Assembly (NCBI GenBank): GCA_014695255.1
Contig: JACJNX010000031.1
Coordinates: 62,001-126,000 of the forward strand
Direction of reading: 5' to 3'
DNA: 64,000 bases
DNA from: Cyanobacteria bacterium FACHB-63
GTDB lineage: Bacteria; Cyanobacteriota; Cyanobacteriia; Leptolyngbyales; Leptolyngbyaceae
Both the position numbers and the translations under genes were made by a program. Shown here one piece after another: positions 4,397 to 44,873 of the stretch. The first letter of the stretch is position 1. Every line of letters begins with the position of its first letter. The notes under the pieces were generated by a model. That model had not been told where the DNA came from. It was given only the letters and a program-made list of their open reading frames with translations, and searched no databases.

Positions 4397-4591
4397 ATGG
4401 CACAGCGGACTCGATTGGGAGACATCCTTAAACCTTTGAATTCAGAATACGGTAAAGTCGTTCCCGGATGGGGCACAACGCCTTTGATGGGCATTTTCAT
4501 GGCGTTGTTTTTGGTCTTTCTGCTGATTATTCTGCAAATCTATAACCAAGAACTGATTCTCAACGGTTTTGATGTGGATTGGGGCGGTTAG
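4397..4591 (+). CDS. psbH: photosystem II reaction centre protein H (PsbH)
   Basis: Single-span thylakoid protein at the CP47 side of photosystem II, needed for assembly and acceptor-side function. The 64-residue product matches cyanobacterial PsbH: short N-terminus with [17 protein letters not shown], the [10 protein letters not shown] stretch before the membrane helix (about residues 30-47), and the C-terminal [11 protein letters not shown]. Spaced 93 bp from the gene before it and closed by a strong terminator, so it is probably transcribed on its own. psbN, often a neighbour in other cyanobacteria, was not found here. Confidence 0.97.
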
Positions 4592-4620
4592 AACGATCGC
4601 CGCATGGTTAGCATATGCGC

Positions 4621-4646
4621 TCCCGGATTCGTCCGGGATTTTTTTT
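4621..4646 (+). terminator. intrinsic terminator after psbH
   Basis: Perfect 7-bp stem TCCCGGA / TCCGGGA with a TTCG tetraloop, followed directly by eight T. It ends psbH transcription before tatA. Confidence 0.92.
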
Positions 4647-4726
4647 ACGAAGTGCATTAGAGACGATCGTGAAACTCGACAGAACAACCTTCTAAAATAG
4701 AAGCTACCCCTTACTCGGAGATGAAT

Positions 4727-5023
4727 ATGAACTTTTTCGGCATTGGCTTACCGGAAATGGTCTTGATTTTGGTGGTTGCATTACTGGTGTTTGGTCCGAA
4801 AAAGCTTCCCGAAATCGGACGCAGTATGGGTAAAGCAATCCGCAGCTTCCAGGATGCCTCAAAAGAATTCGAAAACGAATTTAAGCGCGAGGCTGAGCAA
4901 ATTACTACCGCTACGCCCCAATCGATGCAAGCGACCTTAGAAGAGAAACCGACGCTTGCCCCAGCGGAAACCGATCAGGACAAAACCGACGAGCCAATTA
5001 CCGCGACCGTCGAGAAAGATTAG
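4727..5023 (+). CDS. tatA: twin-arginine translocase subunit TatA/TatE
   Basis: Pore-forming component of the Tat system, which moves folded proteins across thylakoid or plasma membrane. Seen: N-terminal membrane helix (GLPEMVLILVVALLVFGP), the hinge FGPKKLPEIGRSMG, then an amphipathic helix (AIRSFQDASKEFENEF) and a charged, disordered tail to residue 98. The second ATG (4727) is preferred because CGGAG lies six bases upstream; the ATG at 4721 would touch that site. tatB and tatC are not nearby. The gene is followed after 6 bp by pth, so the two are probably cotranscribed. Confidence 0.93.
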   Translation: MNFFGIGLPEMVLILVVALLVFGPKKLPEIGRSMGKAIRSFQDASKEFENEFKREAEQITTATPQSMQATLEEKPTLAPAETDQDKTDEPITATVEKD

Positions 5024-5029
5024 AGTTTT

Positions 5030-5647
5030 ATGCCCGAAGTGCCTCAGTTGGCTCAATTGCCTCAATTAATTGTCGGCTTGGGAAATCCCGGCAGCAAATA
5101 CGAAAACACCCGCCACAATGTAGGATTTCTCGCTCTCGATCGCCTCTCTGCTCGCTGGCAAATACGTCTCGCTGAAACGAAGAAGTTTCAAGGCTTTTTT
5201 GGAGAAGGCATGAGTCCTGCGGGCAAGATTCGCTTGCTCAAACCGACCACTTACATGAACCTCTCTGGACAATCGATCCGAGCAGTGGTGGATTGGTACA
5301 AGCTTCCTCCAGAATCGGTGATGGTAATTTACGACGATATGGATTTACCCGTCGGTCGGCTGAGAATTCGTTTGTCTGGTTCAGCCGGGGGGCAAAATGG
5401 CATGAAATCGGCGATCGCTCGTTTGGGAACGCAGCAGTTTCCTCGGTTGCGAATTGGTATCGGCAGTGCCAAATCGAGCGAGAAAGATGCGGTATCTCAT
5501 GTATTAGGGACTTTTGCGCCGAGTGAGAAAGGTGCGATCAATGAAGTTTTGGACTTGACCGTGAGCGCGATCGAACTCAGCCTCAAGCAAGGGGTTGAAA
5601 AAGCAATGAGCCTTTATAACAATCAGATCGTAGAGCCGAAATCGTAA
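5030..5647 (+). CDS. pth: peptidyl-tRNA hydrolase
   Basis: Releases peptides from peptidyl-tRNA that drops off the ribosome, recycling tRNA; cytosolic and normally essential. Seen: LIVGLGNPGSKYENTRHNVG near residues 13-32 with the active-site His in RHNVG, then LLKPTTYMNLSG, VIYDDMDLPVG with its conserved Asp residues, and GSAGGQNGMKS. 205 residues, typical length. Tightly packed between tatA and a DUF3146 gene. Confidence 0.97.
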   Translation: MPEVPQLAQLPQLIVGLGNPGSKYENTRHNVGFLALDRLSARWQIRLAETKKFQGFFGEGMSPAGKIRLLKPTTYMNLSGQSIRAVVDWYKLPPESVMVIYDDMDLPVGRLRIRLSGSAGGQNGMKSAIARLGTQQFPRLRIGIGSAKSSEKDAVSHVLGTFAPSEKGAINEVLDLTVSAIELSLKQGVEKAMSLYNNQIVEPKS

Positions 5648-5657
5648 ATCATACATT

Positions 5658-5918
5658 GTGAGCAAACGTTTACCAGAAACCACTGCCCATGTCCGCATTC
5701 TCCGTCAGTCCTGGCAGCAGGGCAGCATTGAGGGTGAAGTGCGGGCAAATGAGTATGAGTGGCAGTTTCACTGGCATTTTCGGCGCGGCTTGTTAAGTAT
5801 TCAACCTTCGCTGGGGCGTGCTCTGATCAAAGAGCCGTTGGGACGATTTCTCGAAGCCAAAGACTATCAGCTTGAACCTGGCGGAGATTATTCGTTCACG
5901 ATTCGGGCAGAGCTATAG
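5658..5918 (+). CDS. DUF3146 family protein
   Basis: Small cyanobacterial protein of unknown function (86 residues). I recognise the family from the Trp- and Arg-rich pattern (RANEYEWQFHWHFRRG) and the C-terminal YQLEPGGDYSFTIRAEL. No signal or membrane segment; it may be a compact beta-rich domain. Translation starts at GTG (5658), ten bases after the pth stop, so it is likely the last gene of tatA-pth-DUF3146. Confidence 0.82.
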   Translation: MSKRLPETTAHVRILRQSWQQGSIEGEVRANEYEWQFHWHFRRGLLSIQPSLGRALIKEPLGRFLEAKDYQLEPGGDYSFTIRAEL

Positions 5919-26294: not shown

Positions 26295-28571
26295 ATGGCA
26301 GGACAAAATATCCTTACTGAATCTTTCAGAAATGCAGATGTTAGCCAATTGAATTGGCTTCCTGGTATCAGTCAAACTGGAGCACTTCCCCCAATTTTGA
26401 CCGCTCGGAGCAGTAGCTCTGCTTCTCCGGGTGGAATTGCTGGCGGTGGCACAGATACTCCCGGCAGTGGCGCACTCCGCCTCACCAACAACACCGAGGG
26501 TCAAGGATCCTTTGTGATCTACAACAAACCCCTGAATGCTGCAGCAGGGCTGTCAGTCGAGTTTGATTTATACGCTTATGGGGGAAGCAGTGCTGATGGC
26601 ATCAGCTTCTTTTTAATCGATGGCACTCAGAGTCCCACCACAGGCGGTGCAGTAGGGCGTAGCTTAGGCTACTCCTCAGACTCGTCTACTAGCGCCGCCG
26701 GAATTGTGGGCGGATATTTAGGAGTCGGCTTTGATGAGTTCGGTAACTTCTCCACCGGCGAAGCCGGAGCAGCGGGAATCGGTACAAGACCTCAATCGAT
26801 CGCCGTTCGCGGTCGAGCAGGACTGAACTATCCACTCCTGCAAAGCGTTTCTCTAGCTGCTGGAGACCGCATTGACAATCCCACCGCCACAAGTCGAGAG
26901 GGCAATGCTCGGCGAGCCAAGATTGATCTGACGACCGCCGGACTACTTTCTGTCGCATTCGATGTCAATGGGAATGCTGTTTTCGAGACCGGTGAAACCT
27001 TTATTTCCAATCTCGATGTCACCCAAAACCTCAGCCCAGGCGATAGCCCCCTGCCCACAACCTTTAAGTTTGGCTTTGCGGCTTCAACCGGGTCATCCAC
27101 CAACTTCCACGAAGTCAATAACCTTTCGGTTAGCACCTTTTCTGGAGCCTACACGCCACTGGTCGAATTCCCCACAACCTCCGGCGTGATTTCGTCCCGT
27201 AGCTCTACGATCACAGCAAGTATTGATGTTGCGACCGACAGACCCGTCACTATTCCGCTGCTTGTCGGTGGCACAGCCCAGAACGACATCGACTATCGGC
27301 TTTCGTCACAGACGATCACGATCGCGCCTGGACAAACCACAGGCAGCATCACGCTCACCCGACTGAACTCGCCAACCGCTGCGGATAAGACGATTCAAAT
27401 CAATCTTGACACTCCGACCAATGCTGACAGAAGCCCACGGAACGCAGCGGTAAACCTCGTATTGTCGCCTGATGTGACATTCACGAATCCTACCGACTGC
27501 GAAATTCCCGATTTTGATGGCAACGGCGGCGTTGATTTGCCCTGGCGCAATGTGGCAACGACTGAGAGTGCAATTTGGTTGATCGATGGGACGCAAGTAA
27601 CCGCGACTGGCTTTACGACGACAACCGGGCCGAACTGGGAAATCGCTTCCACCCGCGATTTCAACGCCGATGGTAGAACCGACCTGCTCTGGCGCAATGG
27701 TGTCACAGGTGAGAATGCAATCTGGTTGATGAATGGCACAGCGATCCAGCAAGCCCTATTTATCACACCACAAGTTGATCTCAACTGGGAGATTGTGGGT
27801 TCACGCGACTTCAACAACGACGCGCAAGCCGACATCTTCTGGCAAAACTCCGTCACGGGGCAAACCGGAATTTGGTTGATTGAAAATGCAGCCGTTACGA
27901 GTCAGGCATTTCTCACGACCACTGACACAAACTGGGATGTTGCCGATTTTGCCGACTTTAACGGCGACGGCAGCGCAGATATTGCTTGGCGCAACGCTGT
28001 GACCGGCGAAAACGGGGTTTGGCTGATTAACGGGACGACCCTCACTAGCGCTCAGTTTCTCCCGGCGATCGCTGATTTGAATTGGGAAGTCATTGCAGCG
28101 CGGGATACTAGCGGTGACGGAAAATCGGATCTCGTTTGGCGCAATCGATCGACGGGCGAAAATGCGGTCTGGTTGATGGACGGAACGAGCGTAACAAGTC
28201 GTCAGGAATTGGCGACCATTTCAGATTTGAACTGGCAAATCATCGATGTCTGCGACACTAGCGGGGATGACAAAGCAGATTTAATCTGGCGCAACACTGC
28301 TACGGGTGAGAATGCGGTCTGGCTGTTGGATGGCGCGACGACCCCGAATCGGGGCTTCCTAACTCAGATCTCCGATTTGAACTGGGAGATTATCGGCGCA
28401 CGTGATACCAGCAGAGACGGCAAAGCTGATTTGATTTGGCGGAATCGATCGACGGGTGAGAATGCGATCTGGTTGCTTGACGGAATCACCGTTACAAACG
28501 CGCAATTCATCCAAACGGTTGAAGATCCAAACTGGCAGATTCAGATTCGTCCGGGTGCGCTAGCGCTCTAA
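26295..28571 (+). CDS. L-type lectin / Calx-beta-like / FG-GAP repeat protein
   Basis: 758 residues, probably a surface or secreted protein. N-terminal about 250 residues look like a legume-lectin-type domain (GSFVIYNKPLNAAAGLSVEFD, DGISFFLIDG). Next a Calx-beta-like stretch (SSTITASIDVATDRPVTIPL). From about residue 405 seven FG-GAP/VCBS-type repeats of about 50 residues follow, each with a Ca-binding-like DxNxDGxxD and LxWRNxxTGExAxWL. No N-terminal signal peptide is visible, so a type I or other leaderless route is possible. Not in an operon. Confidence 0.88.
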   Translation: MAGQNILTESFRNADVSQLNWLPGISQTGALPPILTARSSSSASPGGIAGGGTDTPGSGALRLTNNTEGQGSFVIYNKPLNAAAGLSVEFDLYAYGGSSADGISFFLIDGTQSPTTGGAVGRSLGYSSDSSTSAAGIVGGYLGVGFDEFGNFSTGEAGAAGIGTRPQSIAVRGRAGLNYPLLQSVSLAAGDRIDNPTATSREGNARRAKIDLTTAGLLSVAFDVNGNAVFETGETFISNLDVTQNLSPGDSPLPTTFKFGFAASTGSSTNFHEVNNLSVSTFSGAYTPLVEFPTTSGVISSRSSTITASIDVATDRPVTIPLLVGGTAQNDIDYRLSSQTITIAPGQTTGSITLTRLNSPTAADKTIQINLDTPTNADRSPRNAAVNLVLSPDVTFTNPTDCEIPDFDGNGGVDLPWRNVATTESAIWLIDGTQVTATGFTTTTGPNWEIASTRDFNADGRTDLLWRNGVTGENAIWLMNGTAIQQALFITPQVDLNWEIVGSRDFNNDAQADIFWQNSVTGQTGIWLIENAAVTSQAFLTTTDTNWDVADFADFNGDGSADIAWRNAVTGENGVWLINGTTLTSAQFLPAIADLNWEVIAARDTSGDGKSDLVWRNRSTGENAVWLMDGTSVTSRQELATISDLNWQIIDVCDTSGDDKADLIWRNTATGENAVWLLDGATTPNRGFLTQISDLNWEIIGARDTSRDGKADLIWRNRSTGENAIWLLDGITVTNAQFIQTVEDPNWQIQIRPGALAL
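27511..28540 (+). repeat. seven tandem ~150-bp coding repeats
   Basis: Seven units of about 150 bp encode the FG-GAP-like repeats of the 26295 gene. Later units (5 to 7) are more alike (DTSGDGKSD, DTSGDDKAD, DTSRDGKAD) than earlier ones, suggesting recent internal duplication. Confidence 0.8.
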
Positions 28572-29545: not shown

Positions 29546-32500
29546 TTAAGCGGATTGTTCAATCCATTCATCCATCTCCGAGAAATCATTACAGCCTGTA
29601 ACTTCCATCAGCGTTTGTAGCATTGCAAGATCCTGCTTTTCCCATTCCGCCAGAATTGAGTCGCGATCGTCTTGGGGTGGAAAGTACTTGTAGATTCGCA
29701 ATCCGCCGCGCCGCCCATCGGGTGCAACGGCTCGACCTGTACAGGTGAGTTTGACTCCAATTTTGCCAAGTAGGGTTTGAACGATCGCGATCGGTGCTAG
29801 CTTCTCGGTCACGGTGAAACTAAACAGCGCTTTCATGTCGTCGCGGCACTCTAATGCAGTGGTCGCCACAAATTGAACCAAATCATCAGTTGCGAGAATC
29901 TTCTCTCCGGGTTTGAGAAATTCTAGGATTTTTAGCGATCGTAATGCTTCCACTTGAGCGGTGAGAAGTTTGACATCCTGAATGGAGATTTTGCCGTCTC
30001 CGCGCTCTAGATGGTCTTCAATCTCTTGCATATCATGAAGTCGTACATATTCTGGATTGCGAGTGAGGTAGTAATACAATCGCAATTGTGTATACCAGCC
30101 ATCATCATCTTTGAGTTTGATCTCTGGTGTGATCGTTTCAACGTTGTATTTACGCTTCAGTTCATGCTTGCGTTTACTGTAGCGTTTCTGAACGGTTTGT
30201 TCTGCTTGTTCTTTGAGTTCGTAATATTCTGCTGGAGTGATTTCCGGAGAATCAGAGACTGCGATCGCTTCTGCGGTTTGATTGCGAGTCCGAATCGCAG
30301 AAATCACCTGAGCAATGCGATCGCACACCTTCAAATCATGCCGCGCTTCCAAGAACTCAAAGCCTGGAATTTTCAGAACGCCCGTTTTTAGTTGAGCCAC
30401 CATTTGATCGGTAATCGGTAACTGTCCAAACATCTTCGTTAAATCATCTGTAACTAATGTCACCGTATGACCTTCGAGCAATAGCCCATTGCGAAACTCG
30501 CGACGATACCGCCATAGAGACGCATTCACTCGCGCCGCCATTTTTGCCCAAGTCCGCAGCGCGATCGGATTGCTCTGCTCATCCAAATCAAAATCGATAT
30601 CTTTCAGCAGGGCAATATTGTACTGAACCGATTTCGTCGCAGATTGTGCGACATCCCGGTAGTTACAGCTTCCATTGCCAATTTTTCCAGGACCGAAATG
30701 GGCTGCCCAGATGTAACGAGGAACGGGTTCGCGGACTCTCGCTAAAGCTTGCCGGGACTCCGAATCTGGGGTTACACCCTGGAAGATACCGAATACACCT
30801 TTGAAGTGATTGCGAACGTCGATCGAGACTCCAGTTCCGATCGTGGGTGTTGCCAAAACGATGTCATAATCACCGATAACATCATTAATGCGCTCAGCAA
30901 TGTGATAAGCAGCATGATCCGGATCAGAAACAGTTTCGCTATCAATTCGGAGAATACGCTTTTCGGAAAACTGCAATCTCAGGTAAGTTTCTAAATTCTT
31001 AGAACTCCAGCGACCCCGGACTTTCTGAGAATCGACACAGACGAAAACGGCTCCGGTTTTTAGAACAGATTCCATTCGATCGATCAAGGGTGCAGGATTT
31101 TTTGTGTCGTATAGCGAAACACTCCAAGAAATCTCAGGCTTCCATTGATTCACTACAACCCAGGGTGTGACCGGAGTTTCCGCCAATCCGCGCAAGTAAT
31201 CGATGCTGACATCTGACAAGTCTGCGTCTTGTGCAATCACCAATCCATCGGTTGCCAGCACAGTCTCAATTAATTCGCGTAGGGTTTCGAGAATTCTGAC
31301 GCGCTGATTGTAGCAAGTTGCACTATTGAGCGCGTGCCATAACACCTGTTCGACTTCATCGAGAATGACGATCGCCCCTTCCCACTCTGCCGCGTTGAAT
31401 CGGATGCGCGAGTTCGGATGCAGCGAATCAATACACAATCCATAGCTGCCCGGATTTTCCGAATTCAGCGCATCAGTGATCCAATCAATCCCAATACTTT
31501 GACAAATGGCTTTGCCGAGTTGAATGCGATGTGTGATCACAAGAACTTTGCGTTCAGCTTTCGCTGTGCCAGAGGCATCGGTTGCCGTTTTGATTAGTCC
31601 TTGTAGGGCTGTCGTTTTCCCGGTTCCTTTAGCACTTTTAATACAGACTAAACCAGAGTCGGGATAAGAAAGATCCCCTAAATACGGCTGATCTAATGTA
31701 AGTGAAGGGGTATAGGTTAATGACCATAATTTTGATGCTTGCCAGAATTCAAGCTCAACTGCTGATTCATATAGTTTTGCAAACGCAGCATGACCACGAG
31801 CAACAATGAAATCGTCAACGCCTTTTTCAGCACCTGGCAGTGCAATAACTTTAACTTGACAGCCAGCATTGGTTAATAGTTGTCCTAAACGAGAAGTCGC
31901 AAGAAAAATATTTTGTAAGGTTCGCGGTTTTGTTTCGTGGTCGAAGCAGATATGAACGGTTCTTTGAGCCGTGGCAAAATGACCGAGTTCTGCGATTAGT
32001 TGCCGAGTTTCGCGCCGATAGCCACTAAAAATTCCGGGAAGCGCGATTGCAGCATACCCCAAACTCAACAAACAACCCGCTTTCTTCTCGCCTTCGGTCA
32101 GGACGATCGGCAAATTATTGCGCCAAACCCATTCCCAAAAGTTCGTTGCTCCGGCAATTTCGATTTCAAACCGCTCTGCAACCTTCTGCCAAATCCGCAT
32201 CGGTACATCTAGCAGAATCAATCGGCTAGACCCTTTACCTAGACTGGGACTGAGGTATTTTGCAGGCTTGCTTTTTGTGCGATCGACGATCGGTGTATCG
32301 GCATCGGGCTTAAACCGTCCCCACTCCATTCGCTGCCAGTGATTGAGAGGATCAATTCCGCTCACCCACCAGCCCCGCACCGATTCCCGCGCTTGTTGAC
32401 CAAATCGCGTCACCTTCCAATTCAGCAACTCTGCGATCGGATAACTTGCCTCGTGAGTAAACGGATCGAAGTCGGTATCACGCAGCGATCGTACATTCCG

Positions 32501-32617
32501 GCGAATAATCTCCGGATCGACACCGCTCATTAACCATTCTTGTTCGTGATCGGGAGCCAGGTAGCCCTCGATCGGTTTTGCCGCTTCAGAAGAAGCAATT
32601 CTGAGGGAAGTTACCAT
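29546..32617 (-). CDS. plasmid-type replication protein, CyRepA1 family
   Basis: 1023-residue protein of the type found as the replication initiator of small cyanobacterial plasmids (CyRepA1). Parts in order: N-terminal region (PIEGYLAPDHEQEWLMSGVD), a DUF3854/Toprim-like domain with PIVLTEGEKKAGCLLSLGY near residue 175 and VHICFDHE, then a helicase-like core: Walker A KSAKGTGKTTALQG near 325, DEVEQ box near 420, and GVSIDVRNHFKGVFGI plus QALARVREP as late motifs. The start at 32617 is preferred since AAGGAG lies upstream; two earlier in-frame starts exist. Divergent from the 33285 gene. Finding it between tpiA and msrA suggests an integrated or chromosomal replicon. Confidence 0.85.
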   Translation of the reverse strand: MVTSLRIASSEAAKPIEGYLAPDHEQEWLMSGVDPEIIRRNVRSLRDTDFDPFTHEASYPIAELLNWKVTRFGQQARESVRGWWVSGIDPLNHWQRMEWGRFKPDADTPIVDRTKSKPAKYLSPSLGKGSSRLILLDVPMRIWQKVAERFEIEIAGATNFWEWVWRNNLPIVLTEGEKKAGCLLSLGYAAIALPGIFSGYRRETRQLIAELGHFATAQRTVHICFDHETKPRTLQNIFLATSRLGQLLTNAGCQVKVIALPGAEKGVDDFIVARGHAAFAKLYESAVELEFWQASKLWSLTYTPSLTLDQPYLGDLSYPDSGLVCIKSAKGTGKTTALQGLIKTATDASGTAKAERKVLVITHRIQLGKAICQSIGIDWITDALNSENPGSYGLCIDSLHPNSRIRFNAAEWEGAIVILDEVEQVLWHALNSATCYNQRVRILETLRELIETVLATDGLVIAQDADLSDVSIDYLRGLAETPVTPWVVVNQWKPEISWSVSLYDTKNPAPLIDRMESVLKTGAVFVCVDSQKVRGRWSSKNLETYLRLQFSEKRILRIDSETVSDPDHAAYHIAERINDVIGDYDIVLATPTIGTGVSIDVRNHFKGVFGIFQGVTPDSESRQALARVREPVPRYIWAAHFGPGKIGNGSCNYRDVAQSATKSVQYNIALLKDIDFDLDEQSNPIALRTWAKMAARVNASLWRYRREFRNGLLLEGHTVTLVTDDLTKMFGQLPITDQMVAQLKTGVLKIPGFEFLEARHDLKVCDRIAQVISAIRTRNQTAEAIAVSDSPEITPAEYYELKEQAEQTVQKRYSKRKHELKRKYNVETITPEIKLKDDDGWYTQLRLYYYLTRNPEYVRLHDMQEIEDHLERGDGKISIQDVKLLTAQVEALRSLKILEFLKPGEKILATDDLVQFVATTALECRDDMKALFSFTVTEKLAPIAIVQTLLGKIGVKLTCTGRAVAPDGRRGGLRIYKYFPPQDDRDSILAEWEKQDLAMLQTLMEVTGCNDFSEMDEWIEQSA

Positions 32618-32719
32618 CAGTTCTGCTCCTTCTGACATAAGTTCGCACGCGAACCTGGCGCAGACGTGCCGCACCTGATACAATGTCTAGACATAGAAAT
32701 CAAGCCCAATCTTTTTGGG

Positions 32720-32866
32720 CAAACAAGGTTATCAACCCCTTTAGCTGACTGTGGTAGGGAAGCTTTAGGGGTTTTGCTTTGGAAGCGAAATTCTAGATTG
32801 GCGGACTTCTTGAAGCGGTGGTAGTCGCCTGAAATCGCGCAATCTAATTCGAGACAAACAAGGTTA
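32720..32866. repeat. 12-bp direct repeat CAAACAAGGTTA
   Basis: Two identical copies, at 32720-32731 and 32855-32866, 135 bp apart in the spacer. They flank the hairpin at 32734. Confidence 0.7.
32734..32773. ncRNA. hairpin, possible copy-control or antisense RNA structure
   Basis: Arms AACCCCT / AGGGGTT, a symmetric TT/TT bulge, then AGCT / AGCT closing a 14-base loop, followed by a TTTTGCTTT run on the plus strand. It lies about 120 bp upstream of the CyRepA1-type gene, in its leader if transcribed leftward. RNA identity is speculative. Confidence 0.3.
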
Positions 32867-33004
32867 GTCGGGTCATGCAGGTTAAACATTGCCGACGTGG
32901 AAAGCAGATTAACACTGATCCAGCAGACGCTCAAGAGGGGATGGATCAGCGATCCGGGGGAGTTATAGGTGAATGAGAGGAGCGGGCTAGGTGGGAAATT
33001 GGAC

Positions 33005-33060
33005 GGGGGAGGAATAGGGAATAGGGAGTAGGAGTGGGGGAATTAGGGAGTTTGTGAGGG
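33005..33060 (+). repeat. G-rich tract with possible quadruplex
   Basis: Six runs of three to five G on the plus strand, with spacers of 4 to 9 bases, just left of the GTTACAG repeats. Four or more G-runs could form a G-quadruplex; two spacers are longer than usual. Confidence 0.4.
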
Positions 33061-33108
33061 ATGCGATCGCGTAAAATAGCTTCACTCCTGGATCGGATCA
33101 ACGGCAGA

Positions 33109-33175
33109 GTTACAGGGAAAAAATCGACGCGGCAGTTACAGAGATCGCGATCGAAATCAGACGCAAGCGTTACAG
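33109..33175 (+). repeat. three GTTACAG repeats, iteron-like
   Basis: GTTACAG at 33109, 33135 and 33169 (spacings 26 and 34 bp) in the same orientation, with further similarity around them (GCAG/GCAAGC upstream). Placed 110-175 bp before the rightward 33285 gene, they resemble initiator-binding iterons, though the unequal spacing weakens this. Confidence 0.4.
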
Positions 33176-33284
33176 GACTCGATGAAATTACTACTAGCGA
33201 TAGGGGCGGTCTGGATCATTCCAGCACTAAATCTCCAGATATAGCGTTTAACCTCTAGACAAAACCCTGAGGGTAGGGCACTAT

Positions 33285-34391
33285 ATGTGGGGTCTAGAAT
33301 CTTCGAGAGCGATGAAACCACTAGAAGCAGCCTTTCCCGTCGATAGCCAACTTTTGATGATGTTGCCCAGAGCTAGCGCATCCGTCCGCAATCCAGATGT
33401 GCGATTACCGATTTTGCGATCGGATGCGAACGGCTATTACTTGGAGATGCGTGTTGAGGCGGATGTTCAGGATGAAAGCGAATTTGCCGTGATTCGTCGA
33501 ATGCCGCTAGAAAATTTGACCGAAGAAGAGTTAACAGAACTAAAAACCGAATATGCCAATCTCGATTGGGCAGCTTGTGTGCGAAAAGGCGTAAGCAATG
33601 GATTAGAAAAAGTCCACGATCGCCGGATTCAGAGAATGTTTATGGCGCTGATGACGTTTTTGAATCCGCGTCAGATTTCGATCGTGCTGTATCTCTACAA
33701 ATTGGCAGCCCAACAGCAAAACGGCGGAACCGTAACGTTCCGATCGAACGATTTACTTGAAAGTTTGGGATATACGCGGACAAAGGATGGCGGATTTGCG
33801 TCGAAGCTGCGATCGCAACTGAATCGAGATTTAGTCACGCTGCACCGAACCGAGTTAGTATTAGCGCAATCGTTCAAGAAAATGCACCAAAATCGTGGCG
33901 CAAAAGTCATGATTAAAAGCATTCTGCGAATTAAAGATTATGAAGTAGATACTGCTCCGCGAGATTTTGATATTACAAAAGCCGCAGATTACACTTATGA
34001 ATTGGCAGACTCTTACACGATTTCTCTAGAATTTTTTGACGGTTCTCGAAACGGGGATTGTGTCCTTTTTCCGAGTCAGTTCGACATCACTCAACGACTG
34101 GGCACGAATGCGAAGTGCGATTATAAAACTAAGCTTCTCATCTATCTAGCTAGTCGAATGAAGTGGGATAGTTTAACCGATGGACAGTTTATCTCTGTCT
34201 CTAAACGTTATCTCTTCAAGAATCTCGATTTACTCGGCAGCAACTCTTCTCGAAACAATCAGATTTTCTGGCGCACGATCGACGAGCTAAAAGAAAGTGG
34301 ATACCTACTTGGCGCACAAGAACTTTCAGGAAAAAGCCGCATCTCTACAATTCAATTCCAAATCGATTCAACCAAACTGAAGTGCAAATAA
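33285..34391 (+). CDS. unrecognised protein, possible replication-initiator partner
   Basis: 368 residues, no signal or membrane segment. I do not recognise a named family. The middle and C-terminal parts have the feel of two winged-helix units: NPRQISIVLYLYKLAAQQQ with TFRSNDLLESLGYTRTKD, and TKLLIYLASRMKWDSLTDGQ with WRTIDELKESGYL, which is the layout of iteron-type plasmid initiators. The context supports that: divergent from a CyRepA1-type gene, with direct repeats between. An in-frame ATG at 33312 is an equally good start. Function is inferred. Confidence 0.75.
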   Translation: MWGLESSRAMKPLEAAFPVDSQLLMMLPRASASVRNPDVRLPILRSDANGYYLEMRVEADVQDESEFAVIRRMPLENLTEEELTELKTEYANLDWAACVRKGVSNGLEKVHDRRIQRMFMALMTFLNPRQISIVLYLYKLAAQQQNGGTVTFRSNDLLESLGYTRTKDGGFASKLRSQLNRDLVTLHRTELVLAQSFKKMHQNRGAKVMIKSILRIKDYEVDTAPRDFDITKAADYTYELADSYTISLEFFDGSRNGDCVLFPSQFDITQRLGTNAKCDYKTKLLIYLASRMKWDSLTDGQFISVSKRYLFKNLDLLGSNSSRNNQIFWRTIDELKESGYLLGAQELSGKSRISTIQFQIDSTKLKCK

Positions 34392-44135: not shown

Positions 44136-44873
44136 ATGTACAAGTATGATGTCAATTCCGCAGAGCAGATTATAACAGGCGCTCATAAATTAGTCCTTGA
44201 ATGCGTAGCTCACGCTACAGACATAACTCAAATAATTGATAGTTGCCATGAAAATGATCTCAGACCCTTCGTGTTTAAGAGGTTTGCTGTCATTATTCAT
44301 AACTATATGCTGTCATTTTTCTTTATTAAAGATAGCTTGTTACACTACGCCTGGTGGGATTCTATTGGCTATAGCAATCTTACTAATGAGCAAAAAATGG
44401 TAAATGCTTCAAGCTTCTTTGAATCAACAACTTTTTCCACGTTTCATGCACTTTATATGGTTTGCGAATCATCTCTGCGATTATTAAACAAGGCTTTTGA
44501 TTCTACAGTACTTGATGAATCAACAGGTGGAATTTACAAAGTCCGCAAGCATTTATATGAAAACTTCCTATCAATTTCTTACTCACAACATTCTAATTTT
44601 TATCAATTTACATCATTGATTAGAAATTGTACCCATAATGGCGGTGTCTATCGTAATCCAAATTTACCCAATCTCTCAGTAAATTATCGTGGTAATTCTT
44701 ATTCATTCACGCATAATCAGCCACCCAACTTCATTAGTGTAGAATTAATGTTTGAGCTATCACGCGATAGTATCCAGGTTATGTATGAGATTATCTTAGA
44801 CCCAAACGTTATTTCTCTTCCATTTATCGAAGATCTATACAATCGTCTTTATCAGACTCACCCAATACTCTAA
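44136..44873 (+). CDS. orphan protein, HEPN-like
   Basis: 245 residues, lower GC and rich in Phe, Tyr, Asn and Ser compared with the neighbours, which suggests acquisition from elsewhere. No signal peptide. The C-terminal half has the pattern LIRNCTHNGGVYRNP, close to the RNxxHN signature seen in some HEPN ribonuclease-like domains. The N-terminal half is helical with FFFIKDSLLHYAWWD. No named family is recognised; HEPN is a guess from this motif. Next to an antitoxin and a decayed toxin. Confidence 0.75.
   Translation: MYKYDVNSAEQIITGAHKLVLECVAHATDITQIIDSCHENDLRPFVFKRFAVIIHNYMLSFFFIKDSLLHYAWWDSIGYSNLTNEQKMVNASSFFESTTFSTFHALYMVCESSLRLLNKAFDSTVLDESTGGIYKVRKHLYENFLSISYSQHSNFYQFTSLIRNCTHNGGVYRNPNLPNLSVNYRGNSYSFTHNQPPNFISVELMFELSRDSIQVMYEIILDPNVISLPFIEDLYNRLYQTHPIL

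Follow-up and report, generated by a model that had tools for sequence, protein, structure and literature searches.

The 64,000-nucleotide stretch analysed here (the window; it lies in contig C105 of the 7.23 Mb draft genome of Cyanobacteria bacterium FACHB-63) carries two divergent genes and an intervening spacer which, by their anatomy, very probably make up a complete iteron-type replication origin module. The rightward gene encodes a predicted initiator with two winged-helix domains, the spacer holds its predicted binding sites (iterons) and a conserved hairpin, and the leftward gene encodes a CyRepA1-family protein that other kinds of replication enzyme replace in relatives. The whole mechanism, in which a plasmid-derived iteron origin was kept on the chromosome and works there with an exchangeable replication enzyme, is regarded as moderately probable.

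Layout of the locus

Two divergent open reading frames (ORFs) are present at 29546-34391 in the ORF list of the window, and the interval between tpiA and msrA holds just these two genes, with no partition, transfer or integrase gene. The features of the locus, in window coordinates, are given below (aa, amino acids; dN/dS, ratio of nonsynonymous to synonymous substitution rates).

29546..32617, minus strand: CyRepA1-family replication protein, 1023 aa (PF12965 and NF042913 scores; dN/dS)
32618-33284: spacer between the divergent ORFs, 667 bp, with repeats and hairpin
32692..32778, plus strand: spacer block with the highest conservation (97% mean column identity, 8 genomes of the genus)
32734..32773, probably plus strand: conserved hairpin 1, arms 32734-32746 and 32761-32773, apical part ACTGTGGTAGGG (covariation)
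32794..32846, plus strand: second hairpin, GTGGTAG at 32818-32824 in its apical part
32952..32969, plus strand: iteron 1, score 21.0, top match of the 64 kb window
33099..33116, plus strand: iteron 2, score 15.7, within the genus scored only in the window and genome G006
33125..33142, plus strand: iteron 3, score 12.7
33159..33176, plus strand: iteron 4, score 20.6
33312..34391, plus strand: putative iteron-binding initiator-like protein with two winged-helix domains (AlphaFold model, Foldseek, VIA-align)

The rightward gene: a predicted RepE/RctB-like initiator

The longest ORF of the rightward gene (33285-34391) encodes 368 aa. ATG 33312 (MKPLEAAF...) is the likelier start, because locus L039 has an in-frame stop between both candidates and the ORFs of L038, L040 and L043 begin at 33312. 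A first-pass annotation of this DNA had described an unrecognised 368-residue protein with two winged-helix-like parts, and both descriptions stand. Neither Pfam nor NCBIfam gave a match at E up to 1, PHROGs gave two weak matches only (best E 0.17), and searches against PDB sequences returned nothing useful (one match at E 0.94 in one search, none in another). An AlphaFold model built from 35 aligned sequences (pLDDT 73, pTM 0.72) shows two winged-helix-like parts, at residues ~113-220 and ~230-360.

Foldseek placed domains 2-3 of RctB at the top of its ranking for this model (E 2.8e-4), followed by RepE-iteron complexes. By VIA-align, RctB (5tbf, residues 175-467) reached a Z of 12.5 over 247 residues with a root-mean-square deviation (rmsd) of 5.0, in an alignment that spans model residues 20-363 of 368 and RctB domains 2-3 only. 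RepE monomer entries followed with Z 10.0-11.4 (1rep, 11.4) over 199-212 residues at rmsd 4.0-4.8, and Pi (2nra) with Z 10.3; the first non-initiator rows were CRP-like, with Z 8.1 over ~70 residues. With RctB, RepE and Pi preceding all other fold matches, the model identifies the rightward protein as a RepE/RctB-like plasmid-type initiator. In genome G016 (L035/L036) the initiator gene is broken.

An array of iterons in the spacer

The motif ATACGCCGGAGTTACAGG was found by k-mer counts over 63 spacers (those of 62 loci and the window), and an iteron matrix was trained on 59 of them, with the genus of the window excluded. The training spacers held 464 sites on the strand of the initiator gene and 0 on the other, with at least three sites in 55 of the 59; the flanks of the same loci, 702,052 bases, held only 6 and 2 sites on the two strands. 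In the window, which served as an independent test, the four top-scoring sites of the 64 kb all fell in the spacer and on one strand, and the next match scored 8.3. From these sequence data the spacer repeats are read as iterons, that is, as predicted binding sites of the initiator. The earlier description of a spacer of about 670 bp with repeats and a hairpin is borne out: it measures 667 bp, and both elements exceed chance.

The geometry of the array is also conserved. Eight to 12 sites occur in 38 of the 63 spacers (exactly ten in 19), typically separated by gaps of 24/25/31/25/73/25/31/25/34, and the array ends in a gap of 25 or 26 followed by one of 34 in 38 of 63 spacers; the window has 26 and 34. 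The array is present on four large plasmids (L098-L101), on chromosomal contigs and alongside all three kinds of partner enzyme described below. The distance from the outermost to the last iteron is 207 nt in the window, as in L041, and 208 in G006, and other siblings have 173-175 or no such site; with only G006 near among the siblings, this spacing was not counted as a match to L041.

Other repeats were observed in the same spacer. DNA between iterons 1 and 2 (32970-33098) is only 61% identical in the genus alignment, and G-rich degenerate repeats of the GGGAATAGGGAGTAGG type lie there, at window 32969-33060, shared at full length by G006 only. The sequence CAAACAAGGTTA occurs twice (window 32720-32731 and 32855-32866), and CAAACAAGGT, at both CAAACAAGGTTA places, is kept in all 8 aligned genomes of the genus.

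Distribution and exchange of the partner enzyme

The rightward protein was found in 27 of 58 relatives, including 8/8 genomes of the genus at 87-100% identity, and in 30 of 42 genomes of the family, 29 of them with a single match; the window genome likewise has one. Across the phylum it was present in 6 of 386 sampled genomes. A collection of genome contigs yielded 61 loci, and 6 of the 72,556 PLSDB plasmids, all cyanobacterial, carry the initiator. On the four plasmids L098-L101 the initiator recurs together with its iterons and the divergent layout, in agreement with the first-pass proposal of a plasmid-type module that may have integrated.

The divergent partner was classified at 62 of the 67 loci (61 contig loci and 6 plasmids). 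Four were dropped for having less than 1 kb of upstream DNA (L049, L052, L090, L095), and a fifth, L103 (pCHRO.01), for an annotated IscB gene (4573-5847) that separates the initiator homologue from the DUF3987 gene following it. The partner was CyRepA1-like at 19 loci, AEP-primase-like at 37 and of the DUF3987 kind at 4, with 2 lone partners, so that it belongs to one of three replication-enzyme clusters at 60/62 loci. These classes are BLAST clusters, of which 8 CyRepA1-like, 5 AEP-like and 3 DUF3987 members were scanned, and they include fragmentary ORFs, among them L042, L072, L085 and L094.

All 8 CyRepA1-like members tested scored above the CyRepA1 cut-off. The AEP-like cluster has DxD and SGGxH-type motifs (the SGGxH pattern occurs in 33 of the 62 partner proteins, all of this cluster); Pfam returned no primase in the 5 AEP-like partners tried, and the one that was modelled has an AEP primase-polymerase fold (CAPP 7nqd, E 2.9e-7; RepB' 3h20, E 2.7e-4). 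In the DUF3987 cluster, 3 of the 4 members were tested and all have DUF3987, one together with a DnaB N-terminal domain. The lone partners are a 1370-aa protein with a sub-threshold DUF3854 match (L102) and a glycosyltransferase (L079); the latter stands divergent to an orphan initiator copy in genome G018 that has 67% identity and no iterons. Two genomes have two loci on different contigs, Nodosilinea LEGE 06152 (L070/L096, with identical initiators) and Microcoleus FACHB-1515 (L083/L088).

From these comparisons the initiator appears to be the constant part of the module and the replication enzyme to be exchanged among unrelated kinds. On the initiator tree, which omits L039, L049, L052, L079, L089, L090 and L095, parsimony counts 7 partner changes, with many forks open; its starred branches force 2 changes for CyRepA1, 2 for DUF3987 and 1 for AEP. 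The first-pass annotation had proposed to abandon its reading if the pair of proteins never occurred together elsewhere; the pair does co-occur, at the 19 CyRepA1-like loci of the 62. The pairing is not reciprocal, with CyRepA1 relatives on 272 plasmids versus 6 for the second protein. What goes beyond that annotation is the assignment of the second protein as a RepE/RctB-like initiator and of the repeats as its iterons, together with the exchange of the partner enzyme between unrelated kinds.

The existence of plasmids with the same iterons (L098-L101) and the single match in 29 of the 30 positive family genomes also fit a chromosomal guard, in which iterons and initiator would titrate or handcuff plasmids that share the iterons and so block their establishment. 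This explanation is judged improbable: it leaves unexplained a primase/helicase partner that is found at 60/62 loci and is under purifying selection, and the plasmids to be guarded against are scarce, the initiator being on just 6 of 72,556 in PLSDB.

The leftward gene: a CyRepA1 protein

The longest ORF of the leftward gene starts at TTG 32683, and the ATG at 32617 gives a protein of 1023 aa. DUF3854 (Pfam PF12965) matches residues 160-277 with 142.4 bits against a cut-off of 23, and the CyRepA1 domain (NCBIfam NF042913) matches residues 321-959 with 428.5 bits against a cut-off of 200, covering profile positions 2-594 of 595. The KGTGKTT loop is seen in the translation. The gene is thus predicted to encode a full CyRepA1 protein, composed of a DUF3854 Toprim/primase-like N-terminal part and a helicase-like core, and the earlier claim of a full-length CyRepA1-type protein with DUF3854 and KGTGKTT is upheld by both curated cut-offs and by the loop.

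The window genome has 12 matches to the CyRepA1 model, 7 of them above the cut-off. No iterons were found in the 4-5 kb covered at each of seven other CyRepA1-type loci of this genome (L002, L003, L005-L009; of 11 other matches). Two CyRepA1-type genes, on contigs C174 and C8 of the window genome (G000; L217, L218), have divergent ALP_N actin-like, partition-type neighbours, which were tested and are unrelated to the winged-helix protein; they are probably plasmid replication plus partition pairs.

Hairpins in the spacer

Covariation of hairpin 1 was analysed in 28 sequences (27 relatives and the window) chosen for a loop match within 2 mismatches; left out were L088, which nearly duplicates L072, and L073, in which the match is elsewhere and folds differently, and loci lacking the hairpin stand outside the set. 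The stem is paired in 87.1% of cells, with the optimum at zero slide. Two-sided changes were seen in 9 pairs versus 5.9 in shuffles (6 of 500 as high) and in 31 cells versus 16.1 (0 of 500), so hairpin 1 covaries beyond chance. It probably folds on the plus strand, because G-T pairs (82 cells, or 56 minus one nearly invariant pair) outnumber A-C (15); folding energies favour the minus strand instead (32684-32960 against shuffles: RNA z -4.4 on the minus strand, and -1.8 for RNA and -2.0 for DNA on the plus strand).

A hairpin model, R2, gave exactly one match per genome in 19 of 56 genomes, always at the initiator locus and ~0.5-1.1 kb upstream of the gene. All 19 belong to the 26 genomes with the initiator gene, and zero matches were obtained in the 30 without it. 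Several of the refound loci had been in the training set of R2, so that the independent part of this result is the absence elsewhere in the 56 genomes, and the stricter filters of the genome search lost weak matches.

The apical GTGGTAG is itself biased, with 56 occurrences on the plus strand and 2 on the minus strand of the 63 spacers (shuffles, 3.2 and 2.75). It also forms shorter hairpins alongside hairpin 1: 27 such sites besides hairpin 1 have longer closing stems than permuted flanks (3.56 versus 2.13; 0 of 2000). Hairpin 1 is found with both CyRepA1 and AEP partners, which suggests that whatever reads it is less likely to be the partner enzyme than the initiator or a host factor. No Rfam family corresponds to the hairpin (with E up to 1, the one match, near 29.0 kb, is at chance level). 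A promoter scan came out negative, and terminator-like sites were seen on the minus strand only.

Chromosomal setting and selection

Among the seven family genomes with at most 5 contigs, the initiator gene is present in G002, G004, G007 and G031 and not in G012, G020 and G028. In the four carriers it sits on a contig of 5.7-6.4 Mb, and none of the six flanking proteins tested there is plasmid-type (a solute-binding protein, a metallo-beta-lactamase-fold protein, a RecQ-like helicase, an invertase, an ABC transporter ATPase and an aconitase).

The flanks described by the first-pass annotation are as stated, and few relatives share the setting, which is incidental. Of 26 genomes searched, only the window genome and G006 have tpiA next to the module (contig ends may hide it in fragmented genomes, e.g., G003), and msrA adjoins it in 6/8 genomes of the genus and in 0 of 11 searched carriers from other genera. 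The tpiA-msrA interval was accordingly rejected as a meaningful insertion site by this neighbour survey; the adjacency is a product of rearrangement.

Both genes are, by their substitution patterns, under purifying selection, with dN/dS of 0.057-0.065 for the leftward gene (3 comparisons with relatives) and 0.032-0.053 for the initiator gene (7 comparisons), dS exceeding 1 in several comparisons. Such selection on chromosomes across the genus agrees with the other half of the first-pass proposal, a chromosomal system. The plasmid relatives, the broken gene of G016 and the reduced array of this genus could suggest a functionless plasmid remnant that integrated recently or is decaying. This is very improbable given dN/dS values of 0.03-0.065 (though with the high dS just mentioned), retention in 8/8 genomes of the genus at 87-100% identity and the lack of plasmid-type proteins among the six flanking ones.

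A dnaA gene was found in 58/58 relatives at E up to 0.001 (57 over the cut-off), the window genome included; in G002, G004, G007 and G031 its distance from the locus is 33-45% of the chromosome. A winged-helix system substituting for a lost dnaA was rejected, dnaA being present throughout.

A candidate mechanism and a regulatory alternative

In the mechanism favoured here, the initiator (33312-34391) would bind the iterons of the spacer and open or mark the origin there. The divergent CyRepA1 would then supply the primase/helicase step, as an AEP primase or a DUF3987/DnaB-type protein would do in relatives. The plus-strand hairpins with a GTGGTAG apex would belong to the origin, where they would either offer a single-stranded site for priming or loading or act as regulatory RNA. 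Since the module carries a replication enzyme of its own and its spacers show no enrichment of DnaA boxes, replication would probably start without DnaA. That the locus is used in the cell as a working extra or alternative DnaA-free origin of Leptolyngbya-type chromosomes, under some conditions at least, is put forward tentatively. Equally tentative is the corresponding evolutionary picture, in which CyRepA1, AEP primase and DUF3987 protein would be swapped and the initiator, the iterons and, in many lineages, the hairpin would stay.

Several findings weigh against an origin that is active on the chromosome. The array is cut down to 2-4 sites in the genus of the window, with four left in the window itself, and in the genus alignment three of these are 83-91% identical and one, unconserved, 60%. 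At L102 and L103, whose homologues are the two most divergent (30-31% identity), the matrix matches nowhere in the locus, and L079 has kept the initiator with a glycosyltransferase beside a spacer lacking iterons. No DnaA box was found in the window spacer with up to 1 mismatch, and the 63 spacers together hold 20 versus 27.8 in shuffles. The best 60 bases of the window spacer are 63% A+T, with no clearly AT-rich stretch (60-82% in 62 of the 63 spacers; 57% in L037, a short one). As for the initiator, Pfam Rep_3 (PF01051) has no match to it at E up to 1 (in the window genome, two sub-threshold matches lie elsewhere and none at the locus), and its model is of middling confidence, the best of five having pLDDT 73 and the others 56-64. 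GC skew in G031 and G004 (20 stretches each) has no turn at the locus and is so irregular that it points to no origin at all; irregular skew is described for most cyanobacterial genomes in passages of PMC7198777. Lastly, 12 of the 42 family genomes have no match to the initiator, which is therefore not essential across the family.

Part of this evidence would also suit a former origin that is now regulatory, the winged-helix protein controlling the two promoters through the iterons and CyRepA1 serving fork repair or restart, with no initiation. The fewer iterons of this genus, the want of a clearly AT-rich stretch and the retention of the protein in L079 without iterons or replication partner speak for it, and chromosomal CyRepA homologues are common according to passages of PMC10899382. 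This alternative is nevertheless considered unlikely: 8-12 sites are kept in 38 of 63 spacers, with a spacing also found on plasmids, and a swap for other replication enzymes is predicted neither by regulation nor by one repair role.

Other observations in the window

Three further features were noted outside the module. A 758-aa protein encoded upstream of tpiA (window 26295-28571) has repeated DxNxDGxxDxxWRN units, which we take to be FG-GAP/VCBS-like. A 245-aa ORF directly after a recA-like gene (window 44136-44873) lies in a stretch of 35% G+C (window 48.7%) and looks foreign. Rfam matched the plastid psbN 5' UTR RNA at window 4438-4499, minus strand (57.6 bits, cut-off 50).

Relation to known systems and significance

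The module resembles RepE (mini-F) and Pi (R6K) in its two winged-helix domains and in its direct-repeat iterons, which share one orientation and lie upstream of the initiator gene; structures of both proteins have been solved together with their iteron DNA. It differs from them in the lack of a Rep_3 match, an identity of ~12% and no enrichment of DnaA boxes, which are frequent, not universal, in Rep_3/RepE-type iteron origins, and in its dedicated divergent primase/helicase partner, chromosomal residence and hairpins.

RctB of Vibrio chromosome 2, the best fold match through its domains 2-3, is the closest functional parallel, a plasmid-type initiator that serves a chromosome from an origin with iterons. 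It also has N- and C-terminal domains 1 and 4, crtS control and a second chromosome, whereas only domains 2-3 are matched here and there is no second chromosome. To our knowledge, neither a partner enzyme nor such hairpins are known for RctB.

The leftward gene belongs to the same family as CyRepA1 of plasmid pSYSA (Synechocystis 6803). According to passages of PMC9978351, pSYSA requires its CyRepA1, which has primase and helicase domains, and uses an overlapping mRNA/asRNA (antisense RNA) pair; unlike the gene of the window it is plasmid-borne, those passages mention no winged-helix partner, and the word "iteron" occurs 0 times in the text of that paper. The AEP-like partner of 37 relatives, absent from the window itself, shares its AEP fold (one model) and DxD/SGGxH motifs with RSF1010 RepB' and CRISPR-associated Prim-Pol and differs from them in standing divergent to an iteron initiator.

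According to passages of PMC7198777, chromosome replication is independent of DnaA, by an unexplained mechanism, in Synechocystis 6803, Nostoc 7120 and cyanobacteria that lack dnaA, and in Synechococcus elongatus a chromosome-integrated plasmid can take over initiation upon dnaA deletion. Chromosomal CyRepA homologues occur in 80 of 145 cyanobacteria, their function being left open in the passages of PMC10899382. Judged by title and abstract opening, none of the papers among the literature matches listed describes the present pair, in a coverage that mostly leaves out subscription papers and preprints.

The locus is naturally conserved on chromosomes, and its initiator, iterons and enzyme are defined to the base, which makes firing directly testable. 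If the proposed mechanism is true, it would add to RctB another plasmid-type initiator at work for a chromosome, and would show clearly that an initiator can change its primase/helicase.

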